A stretch of DNA of 64,000 bases from Stentor roeselii (lineage: Eukaryota; Ciliophora; Heterotrichea; Heterotrichida; Stentoridae): contig RSEH01000094.1 in assembly GCA_006503475.1 (NCBI GenBank), positions 1-64,000 on the forward strand, in the 5' to 3' direction. Below, one piece after another: positions 5,244 through 38,262 of the stretch (position 1 is the stretch's first letter; each line of letters starts with the position of its first letter). Position numbers and translations under genes: made by a program. A model generated the notes under the pieces. The model was not told the DNA's origin. It did no database searches and saw only the letters and a program-made list of their open reading frames with translations.

Positions 5244-7766
5244 ATGAGCTCAATTCAAACTGAACTTCTTAGATTTTTTATTTCTTTTATAAGCAAGTCT
5301 GCTACTGATGTTGAAACTTCGAATTTACTAATAAGGAAAATGCTTAGAAATCGAAAAGTTCAGGAAATTATTGTTGATTGCTTGTTCAAACTGGAACCCA
5401 TTCTCGGTTATGAACTGGCCGCACTCAGATCTCCTGAATTTAAGAAAAATCTTGCATTGAAAAAGAAAGAATCTCAACTTCATGTGTTGGCCAAGGATAT
5501 TAAAGAGTTGATGACTAACTTTGAAAGTATTAAAATTAATCTTGGGTCACTTTCAGAAAAAGTTGAAGATTTCAGCATTCATTTAGACCAGAAGCCTATA
5601 ATCAACAAAGAGAGTCTCCAGCCGTCAGAAACTCCATTAGTCCAGTTTCTATCCTCCTTATCAACAGCAGAGCTAATAAACAACGATGAATTCGAAGACT
5701 TTCCTCGAGAAGCCTGGAACAAGCACACCGAGGTCGAAAAAATGCTTGAGGCAGAGCTATACCTCTACAGAATCCGTTGGAACTCAATGGAAAACAACAA
5801 TTTCTGCAAAATTTCTCATATAAAACAAAAATCCGGTTTAAAAATAGAAAGACTCGAAAAAGATCATAATTTAAAATATTTTCAGCTCATTCATGAACTT
5901 GCTCAAGTCGGGATGGAACTTGAAGAAAGACTCGGATTGGAAAACAGAAGAGCAGAGTTCGAAAAAAAAATACTTAAAGAAGAGGAAAACAACGTTTTTG
6001 TGCCTGATTTGTTATCAGCAGTTGAAAAAATTAGATCTTTAATCACTGTGAGACAAGTGCTAGAGTTTAATAGACATGAAGATGATAAAATCATACAGGT
6101 TTTAAATGAAAAAATACAAAATTTTGCTATTGACTATACAGAAACTCAAGAAAGTTTAAAAAATCATGCAAAGTTTATGCAAATTATGGCAAATTCTCTT
6201 GTTTTTATACTTCAAAATCATTACTGGAATAAAGATGAGCAGGATTTGATTGTTCAGGATATAAAAAGGATGAATTTTGATGGGTTAGAAGAAAAAGTGC
6301 AAAATTTGATCATGAGTCGCCATGCATTGGAAAATAAAGAAAAAATTTTGATTGAAAGTCCAAAAAGAGAAAAAAATCAAATCAAAAGAAAGAGCCCAAG
6401 AACCAAACTAAAAATCATTACTTCTCTTTTGCATAGTCCAGGAAGAGAAATGGAAGGGTCACTGAATTCAGTGAAAAAAATAATGAATGCTATTGACACC
6501 GAGATCAAAAACAGAAACAAAAAGTTAAATGAAAACCTTTCAGATATAGTTGCAAACTTGCACCACTCCCAAAAACCAAAGTTAAAAGAAATCTCAATAA
6601 AAACAAAAATCACAGAACCAAGACCAGAACCAAAAAAAATAACTAAAGAAGAGTCAATCCAGACAATAACTTCATTTAAACTATTCCAAAAAAAGGACAT
6701 TTCCATTCAAACACTAATAAAAAGTTTCTTTTCACAAGAAACAGAAACAGAACTATCATCTTTAGACATTGAAGTACTAGAAAACTCTAAAAATAACAAA
6801 GATGTTGTCAAAGAGTTTCAAAATTTCATGTCTGACAAGATGATCTCCCAAGAAACCCAAACTGAAAAAAGAGTAACTCATCAAGAATTTTCTGACTCTC
6901 GAGCTTTGGCGAGGAACATGATGCGGAAATACACAGTACCCGCCACTACTCGACCTTCACTCATCTCATCACGTCAAACTCCAAATGATGCCAGCAGTGT
7001 CAGCAGTAACGTCTTCAAGTCTATTGAAACAGGAGTCCCTATAACTCCTCATGAAACAGTCGAAGAAGAAGAAATCAAAGAAGCTGCTGAAGAATATTCA
7101 AAAGAATTCGGGATTTTTACTCAGTTCCTTGGGTATAAAAAACTTGATTTTAACTCGATTCAGAAACTTTGGGAAGAAGTTATTAATAGAAGATTGTCAG
7201 AAGGAGAAAAAGACAAAATAACTTCTTATTTAAAAGATTATGAAGGGACTTCGAATTACGAAATTGAAAAATTGAAAATTATTCATATGCTTATGATGAT
7301 AAAAAAACAAAAAATCGATGATAGCGCTTTTGATAAACTTGTAGGAGGATTTAAAAAGAAGATGAATATTCTTAACAGATGGAGGAAGTTTTTAATCACC
7401 TTTATTCAAAAAAATGTAAAAAAAATACTATCAGAGAATAAAACTGTAGGAAAGCCTTTAGATTTGTTTTCAATGTGTATCTTTTTGAAGATTATCAGGA
7501 AAAACATGACTGTGTTACTTGAAAAAAAACACATGATGAAAAAATCTGGGACTTCTGTACTTTTTAAAGATGAGGACTGGAACAAGGTCTCTAAATCCCC
7601 GACACTTGTAAGGAAAATAGTGGTGAAAAGTCGACTTTTCAGTACAAAGCACAATAAAACTTATGAAAAAATCCTTAGAATCAAGTCCCCTGCAGAGTTG
7701 AGATCATTTCGTGAAATTGGTAAATTACCAATAATACCTAACTTCCTTATCAACTCTTCTAAATAA
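5244..7766 (+). CDS. Large coiled-coil protein, unknown function
   Basis: Open frame of 840 codons, ATG to TAA. The protein is mainly helical and charged, with heptad-like stretches at roughly residues 80-130, 200-300 and 320-400. A Ser/Thr/Lys-rich linker holds repeated short Gln-Thr motifs (EESIQT, DISIQT, SQETQTE) around 470-550, and a more compact basic helical region follows from 640 to the end. I do not recognise a family. The Q-T motifs resemble short linear docking sites, but that is inference only. Its stop is 4 nt from the next ATG in the same direction. Confidence 0.75.
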   Translation: MSSIQTELLRFFISFISKSATDVETSNLLIRKMLRNRKVQEIIVDCLFKLEPILGYELAALRSPEFKKNLALKKKESQLHVLAKDIKELMTNFESIKINLGSLSEKVEDFSIHLDQKPIINKESLQPSETPLVQFLSSLSTAELINNDEFEDFPREAWNKHTEVEKMLEAELYLYRIRWNSMENNNFCKISHIKQKSGLKIERLEKDHNLKYFQLIHELAQVGMELEERLGLENRRAEFEKKILKEEENNVFVPDLLSAVEKIRSLITVRQVLEFNRHEDDKIIQVLNEKIQNFAIDYTETQESLKNHAKFMQIMANSLVFILQNHYWNKDEQDLIVQDIKRMNFDGLEEKVQNLIMSRHALENKEKILIESPKREKNQIKRKSPRTKLKIITSLLHSPGREMEGSLNSVKKIMNAIDTEIKNRNKKLNENLSDIVANLHHSQKPKLKEISIKTKITEPRPEPKKITKEESIQTITSFKLFQKKDISIQTLIKSFFSQETETELSSLDIEVLENSKNNKDVVKEFQNFMSDKMISQETQTEKRVTHQEFSDSRALARNMMRKYTVPATTRPSLISSRQTPNDASSVSSNVFKSIETGVPITPHETVEEEEIKEAAEEYSKEFGIFTQFLGYKKLDFNSIQKLWEEVINRRLSEGEKDKITSYLKDYEGTSNYEIEKLKIIHMLMMIKKQKIDDSAFDKLVGGFKKKMNILNRWRKFLITFIQKNVKKILSENKTVGKPLDLFSMCIFLKIIRKNMTVLLEKKHMMKKSGTSVLFKDEDWNKVSKSPTLVRKIVVKSRLFSTKHNKTYEKILRIKSPAELRSFREIGKLPIIPNFLINSSK

Positions 7767-7770
7767 TTAA

Positions 7771-8922
7771 ATGAAAGATGTCTCATTAGTAAATTATTTC
7801 CATGAAAAACTTTCAAGTTTAAAAATTTCTGATGATTTTGAGTCTTTACTTAGTTCAATCTTCTCTCGCATATCAAAGACGAGAGTACTTCAAATGAAAG
7901 AACCTAAATTCAAAATAATGACTCAAGAAGAAACTTTTAGGGTAAAATTAAAGACAATCAGCCAAATCAACGTCGATCCGAATGACATTCAATCTCTTGA
8001 GAAAGAAATCGAAAAAAAATACTCTTATATCAGGGAATTAGAAAAAAGAATTGAATCAGCAAGAGAAAAAATTGAAATTATTGACGAATACCAACAGTAT
8101 CTAGAAGATTATAGAAAACCTGGAATTATTGAGAAGGTTGAAACAATTAATTATTATCTAGACCAGAAAAAATCATCTATTTCTTATCTCAACTTGATTT
8201 TAGAAGAAAAAAATAACTTGAATTTAAATATTGGAGAAATAGTTTCAAAAATTCAAGACCTTTACAAAGAAATCGAAGACGATGATAAAATCATGAATAA
8301 AATGACTGAAGTTTTAGAGTCCTCACAAATAGAAGGTAAAAAACAATTAAAACTAAAACAAAATGATAGTTTTTGTTTTAGTAAATTTTTAGAGGAAAGT
8401 AACAACACGATTCTAGAAATTTCTGATGAAAATACAAAAAATGAAATTTCCAGTAAAATAGAAGTTAAAAACGAAATTTCAAGTAGCAGGTCTCAGGTGA
8501 TGATCATGAACTTGTTTTTTAATCCAGAGTCTTCATCTCCTAGTGAAATTTCTCATTCCTCAAAAAAGCACCTAAGTCTAAAAATTCATGACTTAAAAAA
8601 AATCCCTGTGGATAACCGAAAAACTTTCAGTAATAATCTACCAAATCCCACAAAAAGTCCAAAAATCAAGCTTCCCGAGCTTTCAAGAACTAATCAAGAG
8701 CGACTTGCAATCATAGAAGGAAGACTGAGATATGGAGAAGTTTTACATAATCATATATCTCCAACTCTAGAAAGAGTGAAAAGATTTGAAAAAGAAAAGA
8801 AAAATTACTTTTTGCCTAGTTCAAGAAACAACTATTCACATAGTCATGGAGGCTATAAAAGTATGTCTCCAAGACCTGGATTCAATAACTCAACTCACAT
8901 CATTGATTATTCTAAATTTTGA
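7771..8922 (+). CDS. Coiled-coil protein, unknown function
   Basis: Open frame of 383 codons ending in TGA. A strong coiled coil covers about residues 70-200, followed by a Ser/Asn-rich tail with basic proline motifs. The first ATG is only 4 nt after the upstream stop; the codon just before it in this frame is TAA and no GTAA...AG piece joins the two frames, so these are separate reading frames. The next ATG at 7894 would leave a more normal intergenic space of about 130 bp and is an alternative start. No family recognised. It converges on the channel gene, with 18 bp between the stops. Confidence 0.72.
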   Translation: MKDVSLVNYFHEKLSSLKISDDFESLLSSIFSRISKTRVLQMKEPKFKIMTQEETFRVKLKTISQINVDPNDIQSLEKEIEKKYSYIRELEKRIESAREKIEIIDEYQQYLEDYRKPGIIEKVETINYYLDQKKSSISYLNLILEEKNNLNLNIGEIVSKIQDLYKEIEDDDKIMNKMTEVLESSQIEGKKQLKLKQNDSFCFSKFLEESNNTILEISDENTKNEISSKIEVKNEISSSRSQVMIMNLFFNPESSSPSEISHSSKKHLSLKIHDLKKIPVDNRKTFSNNLPNPTKSPKIKLPELSRTNQERLAIIEGRLRYGEVLHNHISPTLERVKRFEKEKKNYFLPSSRNNYSHSHGGYKSMSPRPGFNNSTHIIDYSKF

Positions 8923-11120: not shown

Positions 11121-12095
11121 TCAGCCTTTGCTAAGGTACTTCGAAATGTTTTCACTTCTAGATCTTGAATGATCACCTTTTAATGGATTAATCAAAATCA
11201 TTTTATTAGTTTGCATGGTTTCTGATATTTGTTTATGCAACTTTGCAAGTCTTTCAGTCTGCAAATTAACATTTCTCAGTAAATTATCTCCTTCATGAGA
11301 AGTCTCAAAAATCATGTCAGGTTCTGTGAGGAAGTCTCCAGGATGTTCATGTTTAATAGGAGAGACTTTTTGAATTTCAACAAAACTCTCTCCAGATTTA
11401 GTTTGTGTGCTAACACTGATACTTTCAGTCTTATTAACCAGCAAGTCACAAACAAACTGAAGAATGTTCAACAAAGGAGCCCCCAAATTATGATTAGTAA
11501 CATTTTGCAAGAAAAACTTATAAGAAGGGACCCGATCATCAAAAAGAACTTTAAGTTTTTCATTATTTTTCACAGTTTTTATTAAAAACTTTGAATATTT
11601 CAAGAGTTTTTTCGAGTCACAATCAGGTAAAGTCCACTTTTTTTTCAATTCATTCTACTTTTCCTTTACAGTTAAAATCATATACTCATCAATAGCTCCT
11701 TGAAGTGACTTCGTAAGTGTCCGATTAAGAGAAATAAAGTTATTCCTGAATATTTTTTACTTTTCTTCTTCGTTTTTTTCCAGGATTTTCATCAAATTCT
11801 TATTTTTTTGTTGAAGTTCTGTTATTTTTTCCTTAGACTCTTGAAGTTCTTGCATTAATCGAGAGTTCTGGTCTTTCAAAGCTTCACAATTTCTATTGAG
11901 ATAACTGACTTGTCCTCTGAGATGAACGACCGATTCTTGTGAACTTTTTTCATTAATGCTTTCGAACTTCGGGGTACTTTCGCTGATCCCTGAAGAATCG
12001 ATTGAACTGACTGAGTCAACCAGGAGGTCGATCCAGTTGCCGAGGTTTTTATTTGAAGTTTTGCCAGTTAGGGTGGATTCCCATTTATCATTCAT
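11121..12095 (-). CDS. Small coiled-coil protein, three exons, unknown function
   Basis: Two minus-strand frames that look separate are one gene. Removing 15-nt pieces 11746-11760 (GTAAAAAATATTCAG) and 11655-11669 (GTAAAGGAAAAGTAG) gives one frame through exons 12095-11761, 11745-11670 and 11654-11121, about 314 residues. The first junction is phase 2 and keeps a lysine codon; the second is phase 0. A coiled coil covers about residues 60-130 and continues smoothly across the first junction. Upstream of 12095 the frame has only a TTG (12113), so ATG at 12095 is chosen. No family recognised. Confidence 0.75.
11655..11669 (-). other. 15-nt intron
   Basis: Coding strand GTAAAGGAAAAGTAG, phase 0. 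Its removal deletes an in-frame TAG and joins the coiled-coil gene to its C-terminal exon. Confidence 0.85.
11746..11760 (-). other. 15-nt intron
   Basis: Coding strand GTAAAAAATATTCAG, phase 2. The TAA inside GTAA would end the frame; removal restores AAG and a continuous helix. The 3' site is CAG rather than TAG. Confidence 0.82.
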
Positions 12096-31389: not shown

Positions 31390-34221
31390 ATGATAGCAAC
31401 TTTCTTATTGACCATTCTTGGCGCTTCATCAAAAGTCTTCTTTGTTCCTCATTCCCACATTGACGTTGGGTGGATTCACCAAGTAAACTACTACTACTCC
31501 GAGCACTGCAGTCAAATCTTATCAACCATCATCCAGCTTCTCGAAGAAGACCCAAGACGGAGATTTGCTTGGAGTGAGTCTTTCTGGCTATCAGAGTATC
31601 TTAAAGAAAACCCAGACTCAAAGCCAAAACTTTCAAAGCTTATTCATGAGGGAAGAATTGAAATTGTTGGAGGGGGCTGGGTTCAACATGATGAAGCACT
31701 TACAGATTTTGAGAGTGTTTCTCGTCAAATTGAAGAAGGTCACAGCTTTCTTAAAAGAGAATTTAACTTGACAGGTCTGAAAGTCGCTTGGCAACTTGAC
31801 CCTTTTGGTCATTCTAGTCTCACCCCAGCCTTGCTGGAAAAATTTGGGTTCCAGTTTTTGGTTATGGCGAGATTAGATGGGACTTATAAAGTAATGGAAA
31901 GATAGAATCAGCTGATCGACAACGGAGACCTGGAGTTTCTTTGGAAATCTGGAGCATTTGGCGCTGAGTCTGGTATTTTCACACATGTTTTGTATAACCA
32001 TTACAGTCTTCCTGAATTTCTCGACATGCGACAGTTTTCCAGATGTTTTAGATCATTAGAAAATATAAAAAAAGACGTTTATTTTTGTTTACTCGCTCTT
32101 CACATGTATGTTCAAATAGTAAAAACTGCTTATAGGACAGAAAATATCATGATTTTATTTGGAGATGACTTGTTTTTTAAAGACTTAAATATTGCAAGAA
32201 AGCAGTTCGAGCTAATTGAGATGATGAGGGATGTTTCAGATGATCTCGAAATTCAATTCGCGACACCTTCTGAATACTTTTCAGCAGTTTTGAATGATTT
32301 TCAGAAGTTTTCAGTTTTTGAAGGAGATTTTCTACCTTATGTGTCAGAACATTTGAGACAACGACCTATTGCTTGGACTGGGTTTTACTCTTCCAGACCT
32401 GCGTTAAAGAAAGAAACTTTTGAGGCCCAGGCTCTTTCCAGGGCTGCTGAACTTGCTTCTACTCTTGTGCTTCATCGAAAGTTGGACACTCAGCAGGTTA
32501 GTGTCATGATGCATCATGATGCTATAACGGGAACATGTGCACCTAAAACTTCAGATGATTATTTATTGAGGATACAATATGATAAAAATATTTCGATTTC
32601 AGTTATTAATTTAGCTTACTCTCATCTTCAAACCTGCAGATCTGAGCCCTTACAACTAATTATTCCTTATAAAATCTATCTCCTGTTTAATTCTTTGAAC
32701 TGGAATACAGTGAAACTTTTCAAATTTCCTGTATCCAACCCTACTGTAAAACTAACAAACAGTAATGGGGATTGTTTAGAATCTCAGACAATAGAAACAA
32801 ATGGACAACTTGAGGTTATTATAAATTTAGAATTAGAAGGCTTAAGTTTTTCAACAGTTTTTATCAGTGAAGTATCATATATCTGTGAATGTTGCAGTCA
32901 ATTTTCTGAAGTTGTAGAAACAGAGAATTTAAGTAATGACTTTTTCAATATTTCTTTTTTATTCGGCTTTTTGGACAGTATTACTTACAATGGAAAAATA
33001 ATGATAATTGAAAGTATCCTTATGAGATATGATGCAAGTCATGGAGGAGCCTATGAGTTTAGACCCAGGGTAAAGATTATGTAGAATAAACCAAAAGGAA
33101 TTGCTGATTTTCTCAGCTTTTCTGTCCAGTCAGGTCCAGTGGTTCACTTTATTCATAGCAAGTTCAACTGTTCAGGAGAGCCTTGCGAGCAGATAGTTTT
33201 ACTTCCAGTTAAAGGATTTTACTTTATACTGAAATTCGATCTAAAAGCTAAGTCTGGAGATGAGATATTTCTAAGATTTCACAACTGGAATAAAAATATT
33301 GAGTCAGTTTACACTTTTAATACAGCTGATATTATAAAAAGAAGTAGGTTTGATAAAAGAAAAAACTGCTTCGGCGAAAATGGTTATCCTGTTGTTGGAG
33401 GTCTTTTCATTGACTATGGCTCAGTTTTCATGCACATATACCCGAAGTTTCCACTAGGAGTCCAACTTCCAAAAAATGACTATTTCGAACTCCACCTTCA
33501 CAGAAACCCTCAAAATGATGATGTTCTGGGGCTCGGATATCCTTTAGAAGACAACCTCTTCGCCCAACATGAATTTTTTTTCACCTTCGGAGAGTTAAAC
33601 GCTACAAAAATCTGGCAGAATTACCTAAACCACAAAAACAGTCCTTTGGAATTCGCTGTATTCAATAAAACTACTTTGAAATCAAATTTATCTCAAGGAG
33701 ATGAAAGATTCGAAGACTGGGATTTCGAAACATTTTATAAAATCGGAGAAAATCATGACTGTTGTTATTTATCAAGAATGTTTTATAAAGATTCTCAAGT
33801 TTTTGCAAGCATTTTAAATATCTGCGGAAAAGGTCAGAACTTTCAACTAAATCATTCAGTGATCTTAGAAGAGGTTCTGATGAACGGAAATGAAATTGAA
33901 GAAAATCTGCTGGAAGTGGAAAATGACGGATTGATAAAATTTGATATCAATAAAAATACCAGGGATAGTCTTTTGAGGTACTACAAACACAAAGACTTGA
34001 AGAGGACGTTGATTCCTTCTTTCAACCTCAAGACCTTCAAGGTCTGGCATGACACATCAGCGAAGCACAGTCCTGTTCATAAGAAAAAACTAAGACCAAC
34101 AAGTTCTTATCAAATAGAAGAAATCAATGACATGACTTTGATTTTCTATCTTGTTATTAGTTTGCTTTGTATTTCATCTCTTTTACTTCTCTTACTACTA
34201 ATATCAAAACCAACTACTTAA
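31390..34221 (+). CDS. GH38 class II alpha-mannosidase, membrane-anchored
   Basis: Exons 31390-31890, 31906-33069 and 33085-34221 give 933 residues. A signal peptide precedes the zinc motif HSHIDVGW. The nucleophile motif appears as LDPFGHS, and further zinc or substrate segments as FGDD and HHDAITGT. Without splicing, TAG stops interrupt the frame twice; both lie exactly at the end of 15-nt GTAA...TAG pieces. The enzyme trims alpha-mannose from N-glycans in the lysosome/vacuole or secretory path. A hydrophobic helix at the C-terminus (about 905-928) would anchor it in the membrane with the catalytic part in the lumen, which is unusual for lysosomal forms. Its stop is 5 bp from the convergent kinase stop. 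Confidence 0.94.
31891..31905 (+). other. 15-nt intron in alpha-mannosidase
   Basis: GTAATGGAAAGATAG, phase 0, with an in-frame TAG. Removal joins DGTYK to NQLIDNGDLEFLW, matching the family. Confidence 0.93.
33070..33084 (+). other. 15-nt intron in alpha-mannosidase
   Basis: GTAAAGATTATGTAG, phase 0, with an in-frame TAG. Removal joins YEFRPR to NKPKGIADF. Confidence 0.93.
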
Positions 34222-34226
34222 AACTA

Positions 34227-36158
34227 TTACAAGTTATTTTGATAAACCGACCAGTTCTTCAACTGCATTTCTTCAGAACTGCATTCTTCAAGTTTTCCAA
34301 AAACTTTCTCAAAATCAAGTTTTTTTTCTATTCTCTGTATTTTTTTAAATACTGGAGGCGTAATTCGTTTTTCTAGGACCATGTTCCAATCAGTTCCATG
34401 GAAAAATCGATGTTCCATTATCTCCAAAGCTCCTTTTTTCCCTGATCCAAGTCGTTTTTTAGGGTTTCTAATAAGAAGTTTCGTGATAAGGTCTCTTATT
34501 TCTTCAGATAAATGATCACTGAACTCAAGTTTCGCTTTCTCAATATTCCGAAAAAGACTATTTCTATCAGGTGAATAATAAGGAGGCCTTCCTGAAACCA
34601 TTTCAAATAAAATAGCACCTAAGACATACCAGTCAATTGAATAAGTATGCCCTTCTCTTTTCACCATCTCAGGTGCGAAATAAGCAGCAGAGCCACAAAA
34701 AGACCGGGCAAGAGTCCTATGGTCAATATTTTCTTTAGAAAGGCCGAAATCAGTCAGTTTCAAATGACCTTCAGAGTCAATTAAAATATTATCCGGTTTC
34801 AAATCACGAAAAAGAATTTTATGAGAATGAAGTTCTTTCAATGCTAAAATCACTTCACAAATGTAAAACTTTGCCAATTCCTCAGTAAAAGACTTCTCTC
34901 TTAGAATCATCTGTCCAAGGTCTCCATTCGGGCAGTAGTCTAAAACCAGTGCAAGTTTCTCATAAGTCTGAAAGGCAAAATGAAGTCTAACAATAAAAGG
35001 ATGATTAATCCTCATCAATATATTTCTTTCAGTAAATGCATATTTTTCTATCTTTCTGTGGAAAATTATCGACTTGTCCAGAACTTTCATGGCAAATCTT
35101 TCTTTACTATCAATTTTTTCAACAAGATAAACGAATCCAAAGCTTCCTTTTCCGAGTTGAAGAATAAGTTTAAAGTCTTTAGGTCTTGTTTTGCTGAAGG
35201 GCATATCAATATGAAAGCGTTGATTTTTCAGTTGTGGGTCTAGTTTTGGCCTGTTTTCAAAAATAGATAAATCTGATTTGTTATGGCCCTTCGTTGCCCG
35301 AAGAAGTAGTTGACTGACATGATCTTCTCTTGAATTATGTCTCAGGCATTCATTGAAGACAGTCCGTGAGTAAGACTTGAACGACTGAGACACCTGCAAA
35401 GAACTGTTATAAGCTAAAAAGACATTAAGAGTATGAATATTCAATGACAACTCAACTGGTGTCCGTTGCAGGTAATTAAGACAGTCAACAGAAGCCTTTG
35501 CTTGCAGCAGAGCTTCAACAATATCCTCAAGTCCAAGACTAGCAGCGTGATGCAAGGCAGAGTTTCTTTCAAAGTCAAGGATATCAAGTAGACATCCCCT
35601 GTTAATCAGCATTAAAACAACATCTAAATGGTTGTGAATACTTGCGAGATGTAAAGGAGTCCTGCCTATCGATGTCCTTGCATTGATAGAAGCTCCGAAC
35701 CCTATCAAAACTCTACAAATCTCTTTGAAGCCTCTTGAAGAGGCAACGTGAAGAGAAGTCCATTCATTCAACCCTTGAGTATTCGGATCAGCAAAATTAT
35801 TTTTTTCCAATAAGTTAAAAAGTCCTTTAATATCATTCCTTTCTACGAAAAACATCAGATCTTCATTAACTTTTTTCATTTGCTGAAAAAGTGAATGAGT
35901 TTCATCAAGGTTTATTACCCTTGCAGTTCTTATTGAACCCTTTAAAATACTCAGGTCATCAAAACTTCTGCTTTCTTTTTCTATCGTTACTCGAGAATCT
36001 TGATAATCAATGCAAAAAGTCTCTGATCTCTTTGTTTTAGTTGAAATAAAACTGGACCCTGGTTCAGATTCTTCATCAATATCTGAAAGATCACTGGAAA
36101 AGTCATCTTTTCTCAAGATGTCTCTTATTTGTTCTCTAAGAGTTCTGAGATCCTCCAT
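34227..36158 (-). CDS. Ankyrin-repeat AGC-family protein kinase
   Basis: 643 residues, ATG to TAA. An acidic N-terminal 100 residues lead into about four ankyrin repeats (about 130-255; TSLHVASSRG, TPLHLASIHN, SALHHAASLG). The kinase domain begins near 330: GKGSFGFVYLV, catalytic Lys in FAMKVLDK, RDLKPDNILID, DFGLSKENI, and a typical AGC activation segment SFCGSAAYFAPEM. The catalytic loop reads FRD in place of HRD or YRD. A C-lobe extension with ITPPVFKK is typical of AGC tails, but a clear hydrophobic motif is not seen. The kinase is predicted active; the ankyrin repeats probably choose partners. Confidence 0.92.
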   Translation of the reverse strand: MEDLRTLREQIRDILRKDDFSSDLSDIDEESEPGSSFISTKTKRSETFCIDYQDSRVTIEKESRSFDDLSILKGSIRTARVINLDETHSLFQQMKKVNEDLMFFVERNDIKGLFNLLEKNNFADPNTQGLNEWTSLHVASSRGFKEICRVLIGFGASINARTSIGRTPLHLASIHNHLDVVLMLINRGCLLDILDFERNSALHHAASLGLEDIVEALLQAKASVDCLNYLQRTPVELSLNIHTLNVFLAYNSSLQVSQSFKSYSRTVFNECLRHNSREDHVSQLLLRATKGHNKSDLSIFENRPKLDPQLKNQRFHIDMPFSKTRPKDFKLILQLGKGSFGFVYLVEKIDSKERFAMKVLDKSIIFHRKIEKYAFTERNILMRINHPFIVRLHFAFQTYEKLALVLDYCPNGDLGQMILREKSFTEELAKFYICEVILALKELHSHKILFRDLKPDNILIDSEGHLKLTDFGLSKENIDHRTLARSFCGSAAYFAPEMVKREGHTYSIDWYVLGAILFEMVSGRPPYYSPDRNSLFRNIEKAKLEFSDHLSEEIRDLITKLLIRNPKKRLGSGKKGALEIMEHRFFHGTDWNMVLEKRITPPVFKKIQRIEKKLDFEKVFGKLEECSSEEMQLKNWSVYQNNL

Positions 36159-36163
36159 TATAA
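36159..36163. promoter_or_regulatory. Five-base shared space between divergent start codons
   Basis: The sequence CATTATAAATG holds the kinase ATG (reverse) and the USP ATG (forward) with TATAA between. Promoter elements of each gene must lie in the space itself or inside the other gene. Confidence 0.55.
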
Positions 36164-38262
36164 ATGGTTAATTGTGTTCATGAAGGTACTTTGGATATTG
36201 AAAAGTTGTGTTTGAAGCTGAATAACCAGAAGTTAATTGTAAATTTAAACAGGTTTCAGTTAATTCTTCAACGATTTTCTGTCAAAAGTGCCAGGTTGGA
36301 CTTCCAAATGTGTGGATTTGCTTGGATGTAATAAAAATAAAGGAAATTTGCAAGTTTGTAGGATGTGGAAGAATGCAAAATAAACATGCACAAGAGCATT
36401 ACTCGAACAACAGGCATTTTTTGTATTTTAATCCGAAAACTGGCCTTGTTTGGTGTCTGGAATGTGAAGTTGAGGTCCTCAACGAAAACTTTGCTTTGTT
36501 CAGAGCTATTTTCGGCATCAATGACAAGGAAAAGCCTGCAAAGGCAAAAGCGAAAGGAGCCGTAGGACTGAAAAACCTTGGAAACACCTGCTACCTCAAC
36601 GCAAGTCTTCAATGTCTCAGTCATAACCACGCATTCAGTCGTTTTTTCTCTAAAGTTCTCCAATTAGAAGAAATAAAATCACAAGAAACTGAAGATTTTC
36701 CTCTTCTCAGCTCTTTAAGTGTCCTTTTTTCTGAGATCTGGAAAGGTGAAACAAGTCAGATTAACCCGAAAGACTTTCTACAGGCTTTTCGAACAGCTTG
36801 TCCTTATTTCCAAGGAATGGCTCAACATGACTCTCAAGAGTTTCTTCGACTTTTCCTGGACAAACTTCATGAATCTTTGAAATTCGAATACGAAGAAGGA
36901 AAATTTCGTTCAATAGTTTCAGATATTTTTCGTTCTGAAATTCACTCGAAAATCACTTGCACGACCTGTGGAAACACAACGACTAAATCTGAAGACTATT
37001 ACGATGTCTCTCTTTCCATCCCCACAAGTAAAGAAATTGAAAGTTATAAAGTGTTCTCTGAAGAAGTGATCAGTCCTCAAGAGCGAGTTAGTTTTTACAA
37101 TGAAAAACAAACACTTTGGAATAAAATTCAGCAGGTTTTCGCTGAAGATAAAAATAATGTCAGTATTTATGACTGTCTTTTAAACTTCTGTCTTCCAGAA
37201 ATGATCAAATCAGAGTTCGCCTGTGAAAAATGCAACAATAAAACATTGAATAAAAAAGAAGTGAAAATAAACAAGCCAGCTAACACCCTTGTTTTCCTGA
37301 TAAAAAGATTTAAATATAATAAAGCTGGGGTAAAAATCTCTACCTTTGTGCAGTTCCCTGCAACGATTGACCTGAGATTTTTCCTGTCAAGGACAACTTC
37401 TTGTCAATATCAACTAACTGGCATGATCCAGCATTCAGGAGGTGTAAACGGAGGTCATTACATCTCTTATTGCAAGAATTTTAAAACGAATAAATGGTAC
37501 GAGTTCGACGATTCTCGTGTCACTGGAATGAGTCTCAACCAGATCCTTGAAAAAGAAGCGTATATCTTGTTTTATCAGAAAAAAATCGATGAACCTCGAG
37601 AAAAAATCAGGCCTGGTGAACAGACTGCACTGCTTCCTTCTTATTGGCTTAATCTTTATAAAACCTTGTCTGACCCGGGACCTATCTCAATAAATTATCT
37701 CATCTGTCCTCATAAATCTTTACGTCCTCAGTTTTCTTTGACACAGTTCACTAAGGTTTCACTTAATCAAGACATGGATATTAGGAAAAAATTCAAAACG
37801 GATTTTGATAGTTTGATGTTTTTGAATGAATGTGATACCTGTCTTATGGATTTTACTAGTGTTGCTGTTAGAGCTGAAATGGAACTTGAACTTATTGAGT
37901 CGCTGAATTCTCGACAGGTTTTTGAAGGGCCTTGGTTTATTATTAGTACTAGGTGGCTGGACAGTTGGAAGAGTTTCTGCCGACTCGACAGTTTCAAAAA
38001 CCTTCCAGGTCCAGTGACCAACCATCACCTACTAAAAAACGGAAAACCCAAAAAAACCCTCGAAAAAGTGAAAGACTACCGAGCAGTGAACCGTCACGTA
38101 TGGGAAGCCTTCATCCTTCTCTACGGAGGAGGTCCAGAGATCCTAAGACTGACATTCGACATATACTCTCCTCCAACAAACGAGTGGAACTACGAGTCTC
38201 CATCCTTATCCGATGACGAAAAAAGGAAAATTTCCATAATTTTGAACTTAAAAGTGAACTAG
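36164..38262 (+). CDS. Ubiquitin-specific protease with ZnF-UBP and DUSP domains (USP20/33-like)
   Basis: Proposed exons 36164-36238, 36253-36327 and 36343-38262, giving 689 residues. The unspliced frame has no ATG before the zinc finger. The first exon supplies the first zinc pair (NCVHEG), then CQKCQVGLPNVWICLD and, after the second intron, EICKFVGCG, then NKHAQEHY. Catalytic motifs follow: GLKNLGNTCYLNASLQCL (Cys box), HDSQEFLRLFLD, a CTTCGN/CEKCNN zinc ribbon, GGHYISYCKN and YEFDDSRV (His/Asp box). The last 170 residues contain a DUSP-like stretch (FIISTRWLDSWKSFC). All catalytic residues are present, so an active deubiquitinase is expected. Confidence 0.9.
36239..36252 (+). other. Candidate 14-nt intron in USP gene
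   Basis: GTAAATTTAAACAG. A deletion of length 2 modulo 3 is needed to link ATG 36164 with the zinc-finger frame. This is the only GTAA...AG piece that fits; 15 or 16 nt would not restore the frame. See findings. Confidence 0.6.
36328..36342 (+). other. Candidate stop-free 15-nt intron in USP zinc finger
   Basis: GTAATAAAAATAAAG, phase 0, readable as five extra residues (VIKIK). Without it the finger reads CLDEICKFVGCG, the normal spacing for ZnF-UBP domains. Confidence 0.72.

Follow-up and report, generated by a model that had tools for sequence, protein, structure and literature searches.

Evidence for a probable 14-nt spliceosomal intron in a USP20/33-like deubiquitinase gene and for a small class of introns of this length

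In heterotrich ciliates, about 95% of the introns are reported to be 15 bp long and the remainder 16 bp (PMC11441545). The cited part of the Stentor coeruleus study counts 8,806 annotated introns, of which 8,173 measure 15 nt and 633 measure 16 nt, with none of 14 nt among them, and places the branch adenosine at position 10 (A10) in 15-nt introns and at position 11 (A11) in those of 16 nt, in either case five nucleotides from the 3' end (PMC9505925). The introns of Blepharisma stoltei, in which TGA is a sense codon, are predominantly 15 and 16 bp (PMC9942806). Mikrocytos mackini has introns of 16 and 17 nt, and the same paper argues that a functional minimum bounds intron length (PMC10245619); elsewhere, a 23-nt intron was ranked against the shortest known, those of Stentor (15 nt) and Bigelowiella (18 nt) (PMC12316389). 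There is a limit to how short an intron can become, since the 5' splice site, the branch site and the 3' splice site have to be held by the spliceosome simultaneously. Among the papers listed in a search of open-licence literature, judged mostly by title and beginning of the abstract, no report of a 14-nt intron came to light; in the excerpt retrieved, the lone text that combined "intron", "14 nt" and "Stentor" used the length for a distance to telomeres. What we call new is a putative GT-AG intron of 14 nt, one base less than the published minimum.

The window, by which we mean the whole stretch of DNA analyzed, covers the opening 64 kb of a contig from the 44.4 Mb, 522-contig genome of Stentor roeselii. 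Translations were made with the standard genetic code. Among the matches listed for three gene families (85 USP, 135 protein kinase and 122 kinesin), the in-frame stops were TAA or TAG and never TGA, so TGA is apparently not a sense codon here. Spliced as described below, the plus-strand gene at 36164–38262 encodes a 694-residue protein in which a Pfam profile search matched, in order, a zf-UBP domain (PF02148; 36280–36489, residues 35–104, 56.4 bits), the UCH/USP catalytic domain (PF00443; 36562–37575, residues 129–466, 211 bits) and a DUSP domain (PF06337; 37927–38151, residues 584–658, 74.9 bits). This order is that of USP20/USP33. The protein is 72% identical along its length to a related protein, P0001, and its closest named relative is a protein from Stentor coeruleus (53% identity). 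A JGI metagenome protein (P0002) was reported as 100% identical over 58% of the deubiquitinase, covering the C-terminal 403 residues and not reaching the intron; the same or a very close species is therefore present in metagenome data. When genome fragments were searched with the N-terminus, two distant hits and no copy of the same gene were returned. Upstream, the deubiquitinase ATG at 36164 and the minus-strand ATG at 36158–36156 of an ankyrin-repeat protein kinase (domains named by eye) form a divergent pair of start codons within 36156–36166, separated by five bases (TATAA), which leaves hardly any space for separate promoters and 5' UTRs.

The initial annotation had noted that the zinc-finger frame has no start of its own, that it is bounded upstream by TAA, and that a frame from ATG 36164 carries the first zinc pair in the wrong phase, all of which was borne out. 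The zinc-finger frame (36226–38262) is preceded by a TAA at 36223–36225, and its first ATG, at 36373, lies within the zinc finger. The frame from 36164 encodes MVNCVHEGTLDIEKLCLKLNNQKLI (MVNCVHEG..., with the C-x-H pair) and, unspliced, reaches a stop after 55 codons. Joining exon 1 (36164–36238, 25 open codons, first zinc-ligand pair C4-x-H6 at 36173–36181) to exon 2 (36253–38262, with the rest of the zinc finger, the USP catalytic domain, the DUSP domain and the stop TAG) produces a continuous frame that is open up to its terminal stop. Because the PF02148 match begins 3' of the joint, it does not test the joint.

Comparison with P0001 sets the exon 1 frame up to codon 36221–36223, where TLDIEKLCLKLN is common to both, and the exon 2 frame from 36256 onward (SVNSST). 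The interval so bounded contains two GT...AG pieces, one of 21 nt that leaves the wrong frame, and the 14-nt, phase-0 piece GTAAATTTAAACAG at 36239–36252, which leaves the right one; on the sequence as given, a 15- or 16-nt GT-AG intron is impossible there. The earlier statement that only removal of 14 nt joins the frames thus stands. Sites of the form GTA..A at −6..YAG with a length of 14 nt number 38 in 319 kb, counting both strands, and at that density about 0.001 would be expected by chance in the 19 start positions.

The piece was compared to 21 introns of 15 nt that were called in a motif-free run of our gene finder. Its 5' splice site, GTAA (36239–36242), resembles that of the 15-nt introns, which have A at position 3 in 19/21 cases and at position 4 in 16/21, and its 3' splice site, CAG (36250–36252), agrees with the T or C that precedes AG in 21/21. 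The shape first described, GTAA with A at position 10 and a CAG end, was correct, and positions 9 and 11 are A as well. A9 and A10 (36247–36248) are both candidate branch adenosines: A9 stands five nucleotides from the 3' end, at the distance of the S. coeruleus branch adenosine and of A10 in 20 of the 21 introns of 15 nt. The piece departs from the dominant heterotrich class in length, at 14 nt rather than the published 15 or 16 nt, as had also been pointed out. With GT and AG ends, an adenosine at branch distance and a removal that restores one conserved frame, and with the length class supported at other loci, we consider 36239–36252 very probably a real 14-nt spliceosomal intron of a USP20/33-like deubiquitinase gene and a member of a small 14-nt class, its splicing being deduced from sequence.

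Alternatively, the gene might be decaying and carry a true frameshift, or translation might begin at ATG 36373 and leave exon 1 unused. That ATG is present, and the motif-free gene finder run began there. However, such a start would truncate the zinc finger, and exon 1, which supplies the C-x-H pair, shares 16/25 residues with P0001, including 12/13 in GTLDIEKLCLKLN and an unbroken run of 12. Exon 2 is open across 669 codons, and the protein retains the 72% identity to P0001 given above. We give this explanation next to no credence.

Both P0001 and the S. coeruleus protein (P0005) have five extra residues, VILNQ and VISIK, exactly at the site of the 14-nt piece (P0001, ...KASLT-VILNQ-NSVNSS; S. 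coeruleus, ...PQIK-VISIK-DSIRIG; window gene, ...QKLI-VSVNSS). By codon decoding, both are consistent with a 15-nt intron in phase 0: A10 is certain, while A4 and an AG end are possible; in VISIK the 3' end would have to be AAG. These introns are deduced from proteins that were apparently called without introns. A pattern search found the motif in 16 proteins, and the 14 of these besides P0001 and S. coeruleus served as the outgroup for a zinc-finger profile. The spacing from C-x-H to C-x-x-C is 18–29 residues in these 14, 28 in the spliced window gene and 33 in the deposited P0001 and S. coeruleus proteins. All three proteins scored higher against the profile without the five residues than with them: 58.3 vs. 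52.9 bits for the window gene (a gain of 5.4), 65.0 vs. 58.0 for P0001 (7.0) and 84.6 vs. 78.0 for S. coeruleus (6.6). We read this as an old 15-nt intron that would have gone unrecognized in the gene models of P0001 and S. coeruleus and that is 14 nt long in the window gene. Because the relatives look like 15-nt carriers there, the USP-site intron probably arose from a 15-nt intron by the loss of one base, the direction of change being deduced from this comparison. There is also counter-evidence: VILNQ shares 4/5 residues with VNLNQ, the read-through of the 14-nt piece, a match that a coding origin predicts better.

Such a coding origin would involve a −1 ribosomal frameshift at T_TTA_AAC, joining the frames through VNLNQV. 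The heptamer TTTAAAC is present at 36244–36250 in the correct register (read by hand), and the product would equal the VILNQN of P0001 in length, with the 4/5 identities to VILNQ already noted. A stimulatory structure downstream was not found, however: the RNA is not unusually stable (z +0.69), and 152 of 200 shuffled sequences matched or exceeded its stability in a calculation limited to pseudoknot-free structures. Furthermore, an in-register heptamer occurs at 0/12 other 14-nt sites examined, the match of the OXA1 gene to human OXA1L (below) needs 14 nt to be removed, and the outgroup zinc fingers prefer the version without the extra residues. Frameshifting is, in our judgment, highly improbable, and the intron remains the preferred explanation.

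The strongest further case is an OXA1 membrane insertase gene, which contains the putative 14-nt intron GTAAAGGTAAATAG at 5408–5421 of locus L047 (C18:25408-25421). The spliced product (...ISANWPS/GVFCYWITN...) aligns without gaps to human OXA1L, and a protein from Tribonema (P0134) has a continuous PSGVFCYWIT, like the spliced sequence. Twelve related proteins, P0134 among them, made up the comparison set. They were subjected to a decoding test in which all codons were tried for a GT-AG intron of 8–30 nt followed by an in-frame G-V-F-x-Y-W-like motif. Two of them, P0123 (VKVIREFF... past the joint) and P0124 (VKVIRECF...), which are 75 and 74% identical to the OXA1 query over 70% of its length and 83% identical to each other, fitted an intron of 14 nt and none of the other lengths tried, while P0131 fitted 16 nt only. 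Seven relatives stop four residues past the joint, with the form V-x-x-x, as expected from reading into a 15-nt intron that ends in a stop; an A-initial codon stands at position 10 in all seven, and A at position 4 is impossible in five of them. P0132 ends one residue past the joint. Of 20,000 random peptides, three fitted some length in the 8–30 nt range and none fitted 14 nt. At this one position of one gene, the related proteins imply introns of 14, 15 and 16 nt.

P0123 and P0124 may come from two species or be two copies in one. In either case, since they decode only as 14 nt, this length would be common to at least one other organism, and base-calling error therefore does not explain it. 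Both certainly have A at position 10 but carry T instead of A at position 11; the TAAA motif seen in this genome is therefore not general. The genome also has a second OXA1-family gene (G000:C235:39892-40473), which matches PF02096 positions 2–161 in a single stop-free frame, so the intron present in the first copy appears to be absent here.

Homology pointed to 14-nt introns in two other genes. In a kinesin (L069, on contig C220 near 39663), GTAAAGGTAAACAG (14 nt) parts VSLRFRPL from the remaining motor domain, and in a Serinc gene (L071), spliced residues 1–55 of 59 match PF03348 positions 78–135 across the joint (E 2.1e-6). Together with OXA1 and the decoding of P0123 and P0124, these cases support the 14-nt intron first proposed at the USP site. 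The kinesin survey scored 122 motor matches from 167 candidates. The domain start was missing from 25, and 20 of those were read by eye, giving one 14-nt intron (L069), one of 15 nt (L064), one probably of 16 nt (L061) and 17 genes that need none. In-frame TAA or TAG occurs in 20 of the 122 matches, as 15-nt introns would give. The probable 16-nt intron (GTAAAAAATAGTTCAG, within C514:101353-101702) has A at position 10 and G at position 11, contrary to the position-11 rule of S. coeruleus. A protein-kinase scan, in which the best full-length 135 of 1,346 candidates were scored, and a myosin scan, with six matches, were uninformative.

Two other loci, L013 and L026, fit 14 nt by frame alone; the first has no Pfam match and the second has a PHD match of 17.8 bits, below the cut-off. 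A candidate from the site scan, minus-strand L045 8143 (GTAAGAAAAATTAG), was left undecided. Two minus-strand 14-nt calls were rejected by eye: at L035 8577 the unspliced frame continues into a RING-like cysteine pattern, and L005 3156 resembles a gap between two genes. The L035 gene itself (minus strand, about 7896–8800) has a 15-nt intron and carries this pattern at its C-terminus, where it presumably resembles a MUL1-type ubiquitin ligase. PDB searches with fragments of L085 and L072 gave no useful match across the joint.

The frequency of each intron length was assessed with the gene finder, a phased Markov model with motif-scored introns and an equal prior for lengths of 11–30 nt, the motif being taken from the 21 introns described above. 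The window, seventeen 10-kb slices and 24 loci surrounding USP-like genes together formed the 319 kb sample. With the looser setting, introns were called at 11 nt (1), 14 (5), 15 (27), 16 (1), 20 (1), 21 (2), 24 (1) and 28 (1), with zero calls at 12, 13, 17, 18 and 19 nt in the 319 kb. The stricter setting retained two 14-nt calls (L026 and L047) and 24 of 15 nt; the window intron was dropped, having been called at the looser setting only. The ratio between 14- and 15-nt introns is rough, because the finder is blind to 15-nt introns without an in-frame stop. Ordinary 15-nt introns were also called in the window, at 33070–33084 and 31891–31905 on the plus strand and at 11746–11760 and 11655–11669 on the minus strand; for the piece at 31891 the finder gave a length of 21 nt, but a 15-nt version ending in TAG preserves the frame.

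When every GTA..A..YAG site of the 319 kb sample was scanned, the 15-nt length stood out, with 27/72 sites passing, while 14 nt (3/38) was not separated from 13 nt (3/51) or 10 nt (3/43); both the window site and OXA1 failed this short-flank scan. Genome-wide, the pattern GTAA-Nx-TAAAYAG occurs 736 times for lengths of 13 to 16 nt combined, with 61 matches at 13 nt (N2) and 120 at 14 nt (N3), compared to 66 at 17 nt (N6). The 14-nt count exceeds the mean of the 13- and 17-nt counts (Poisson, 1.8e-10; binomial over the three spacings, 5e-7). The reversed pattern gave 148, 113 and 144 matches at 13, 14 and 17 nt, respectively, so that 120 is no excess over this control at 14 nt, and the claim of an excess rests on the comparison between spacings. 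Among the first 100 matches listed (contigs C1–C34), 17 were of 14 nt, one of them OXA1. Eight of the other 16 (GTAANNNTAAAYAG) fit introns (L071, L072, L073, L076, L079, L082, L085 and L086) and eight do not, by pass thresholds that were fixed after a first look at those sites. The correct shift scored best at seven of the eight, the exception being L071, which rests on its Serinc match. Since the flanks are short and wrong frame shifts passed as well, at 6 and 4 of the 16 sites, these sites are weak evidence taken alone. A 13-nt version passed at one of ten sites (L092); this was rejected, as the unspliced frame reads better by eye, leaving 0/10.

Position 10 was A in all 14-nt cases seen, relatives included. 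In the five found without the TAAA pattern (the window, L013, L026, L047 and L069), positions 9, 10 and 11 were all A, whereas the position matching A11 is A in 3/21 of the 15-nt introns. The 14-nt class of this genome may carry its own 3' module, TAAAYAG, which the introns of P0123 and P0124 would not keep. From these comparisons, 14 nt would appear to be a recurring minority class in this genome rather than a single oddity.

We considered the possibility that the intron is truly 15 nt and that the assembly lacks one base. The relatives appear to have 15 nt at the USP site, and short single-base runs are error-prone in some read types. However, across 272,840 coding bases the looser setting accounted for all but two insertions, one deletion and one in-frame stop, or about one break per 70 to 90 kb, which is too few even if undercounted. 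From the three frame breaks, an error within a given 15-nt intron would be expected about once in 6,000. The count may be too low, as breaks can hide in miscalled introns and at gene ends; when introns were disallowed, the finder had to assume 20 breaks over 269 kb. Moreover, several 14-nt introns are present in the sample, and related OXA1 proteins share one. A missing base is very unlikely, and we retain the 14-nt intron.

In the proposed mechanism, the spliceosome would recognize the 5' GUAA and the 3' CAG of 36239–36252, with adenosine 9 or 10 acting as the branch and giving a loop of 9 or 10 nucleotides. Phase-0 excision would join Ile25 to Val26 and complete the zinc finger, and RNA left unspliced would yield a 55-residue peptide. 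On a broader scale, we think it likely that 14 nt is a functional spliceosomal intron class in a group of heterotrichs, found at orthologous sites in more than one species, which would place the lower size limit below 15 nt and imply a lariat loop of only nine or ten nucleotides. If so, one further base is dispensable below 15 nt. The OXA1 site, with its implied lengths of 14, 15 and 16 nt, would be a natural series for finding which spacing is fixed, and in genomes of this kind, gene predictors restricted to 15 and 16 nt would produce broken gene models.

The putative introns are most like those of S. coeruleus, with which they share GT-AG ends, AT-richness, an A five nucleotides from the 3' end and narrow lengths, but the cited part of that annotation contains no 14-nt introns (PMC9505925). 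Blepharisma stoltei is likewise a heterotrich with ultra-short introns, but differs in that TGA is sense and that none of 14 bp appears in the sections cited (PMC9942806). The deubiquitinase follows USP20/USP33 in its zf-UBP, UCH and DUSP order and is unlike them in having one DUSP match and 28 residues between C-x-H and C-x-x-C. Mikrocytos mackini, a parasite from another lineage, also has extremely short and uniform introns, although these are two or three nucleotides longer than the one described here (PMC10245619).
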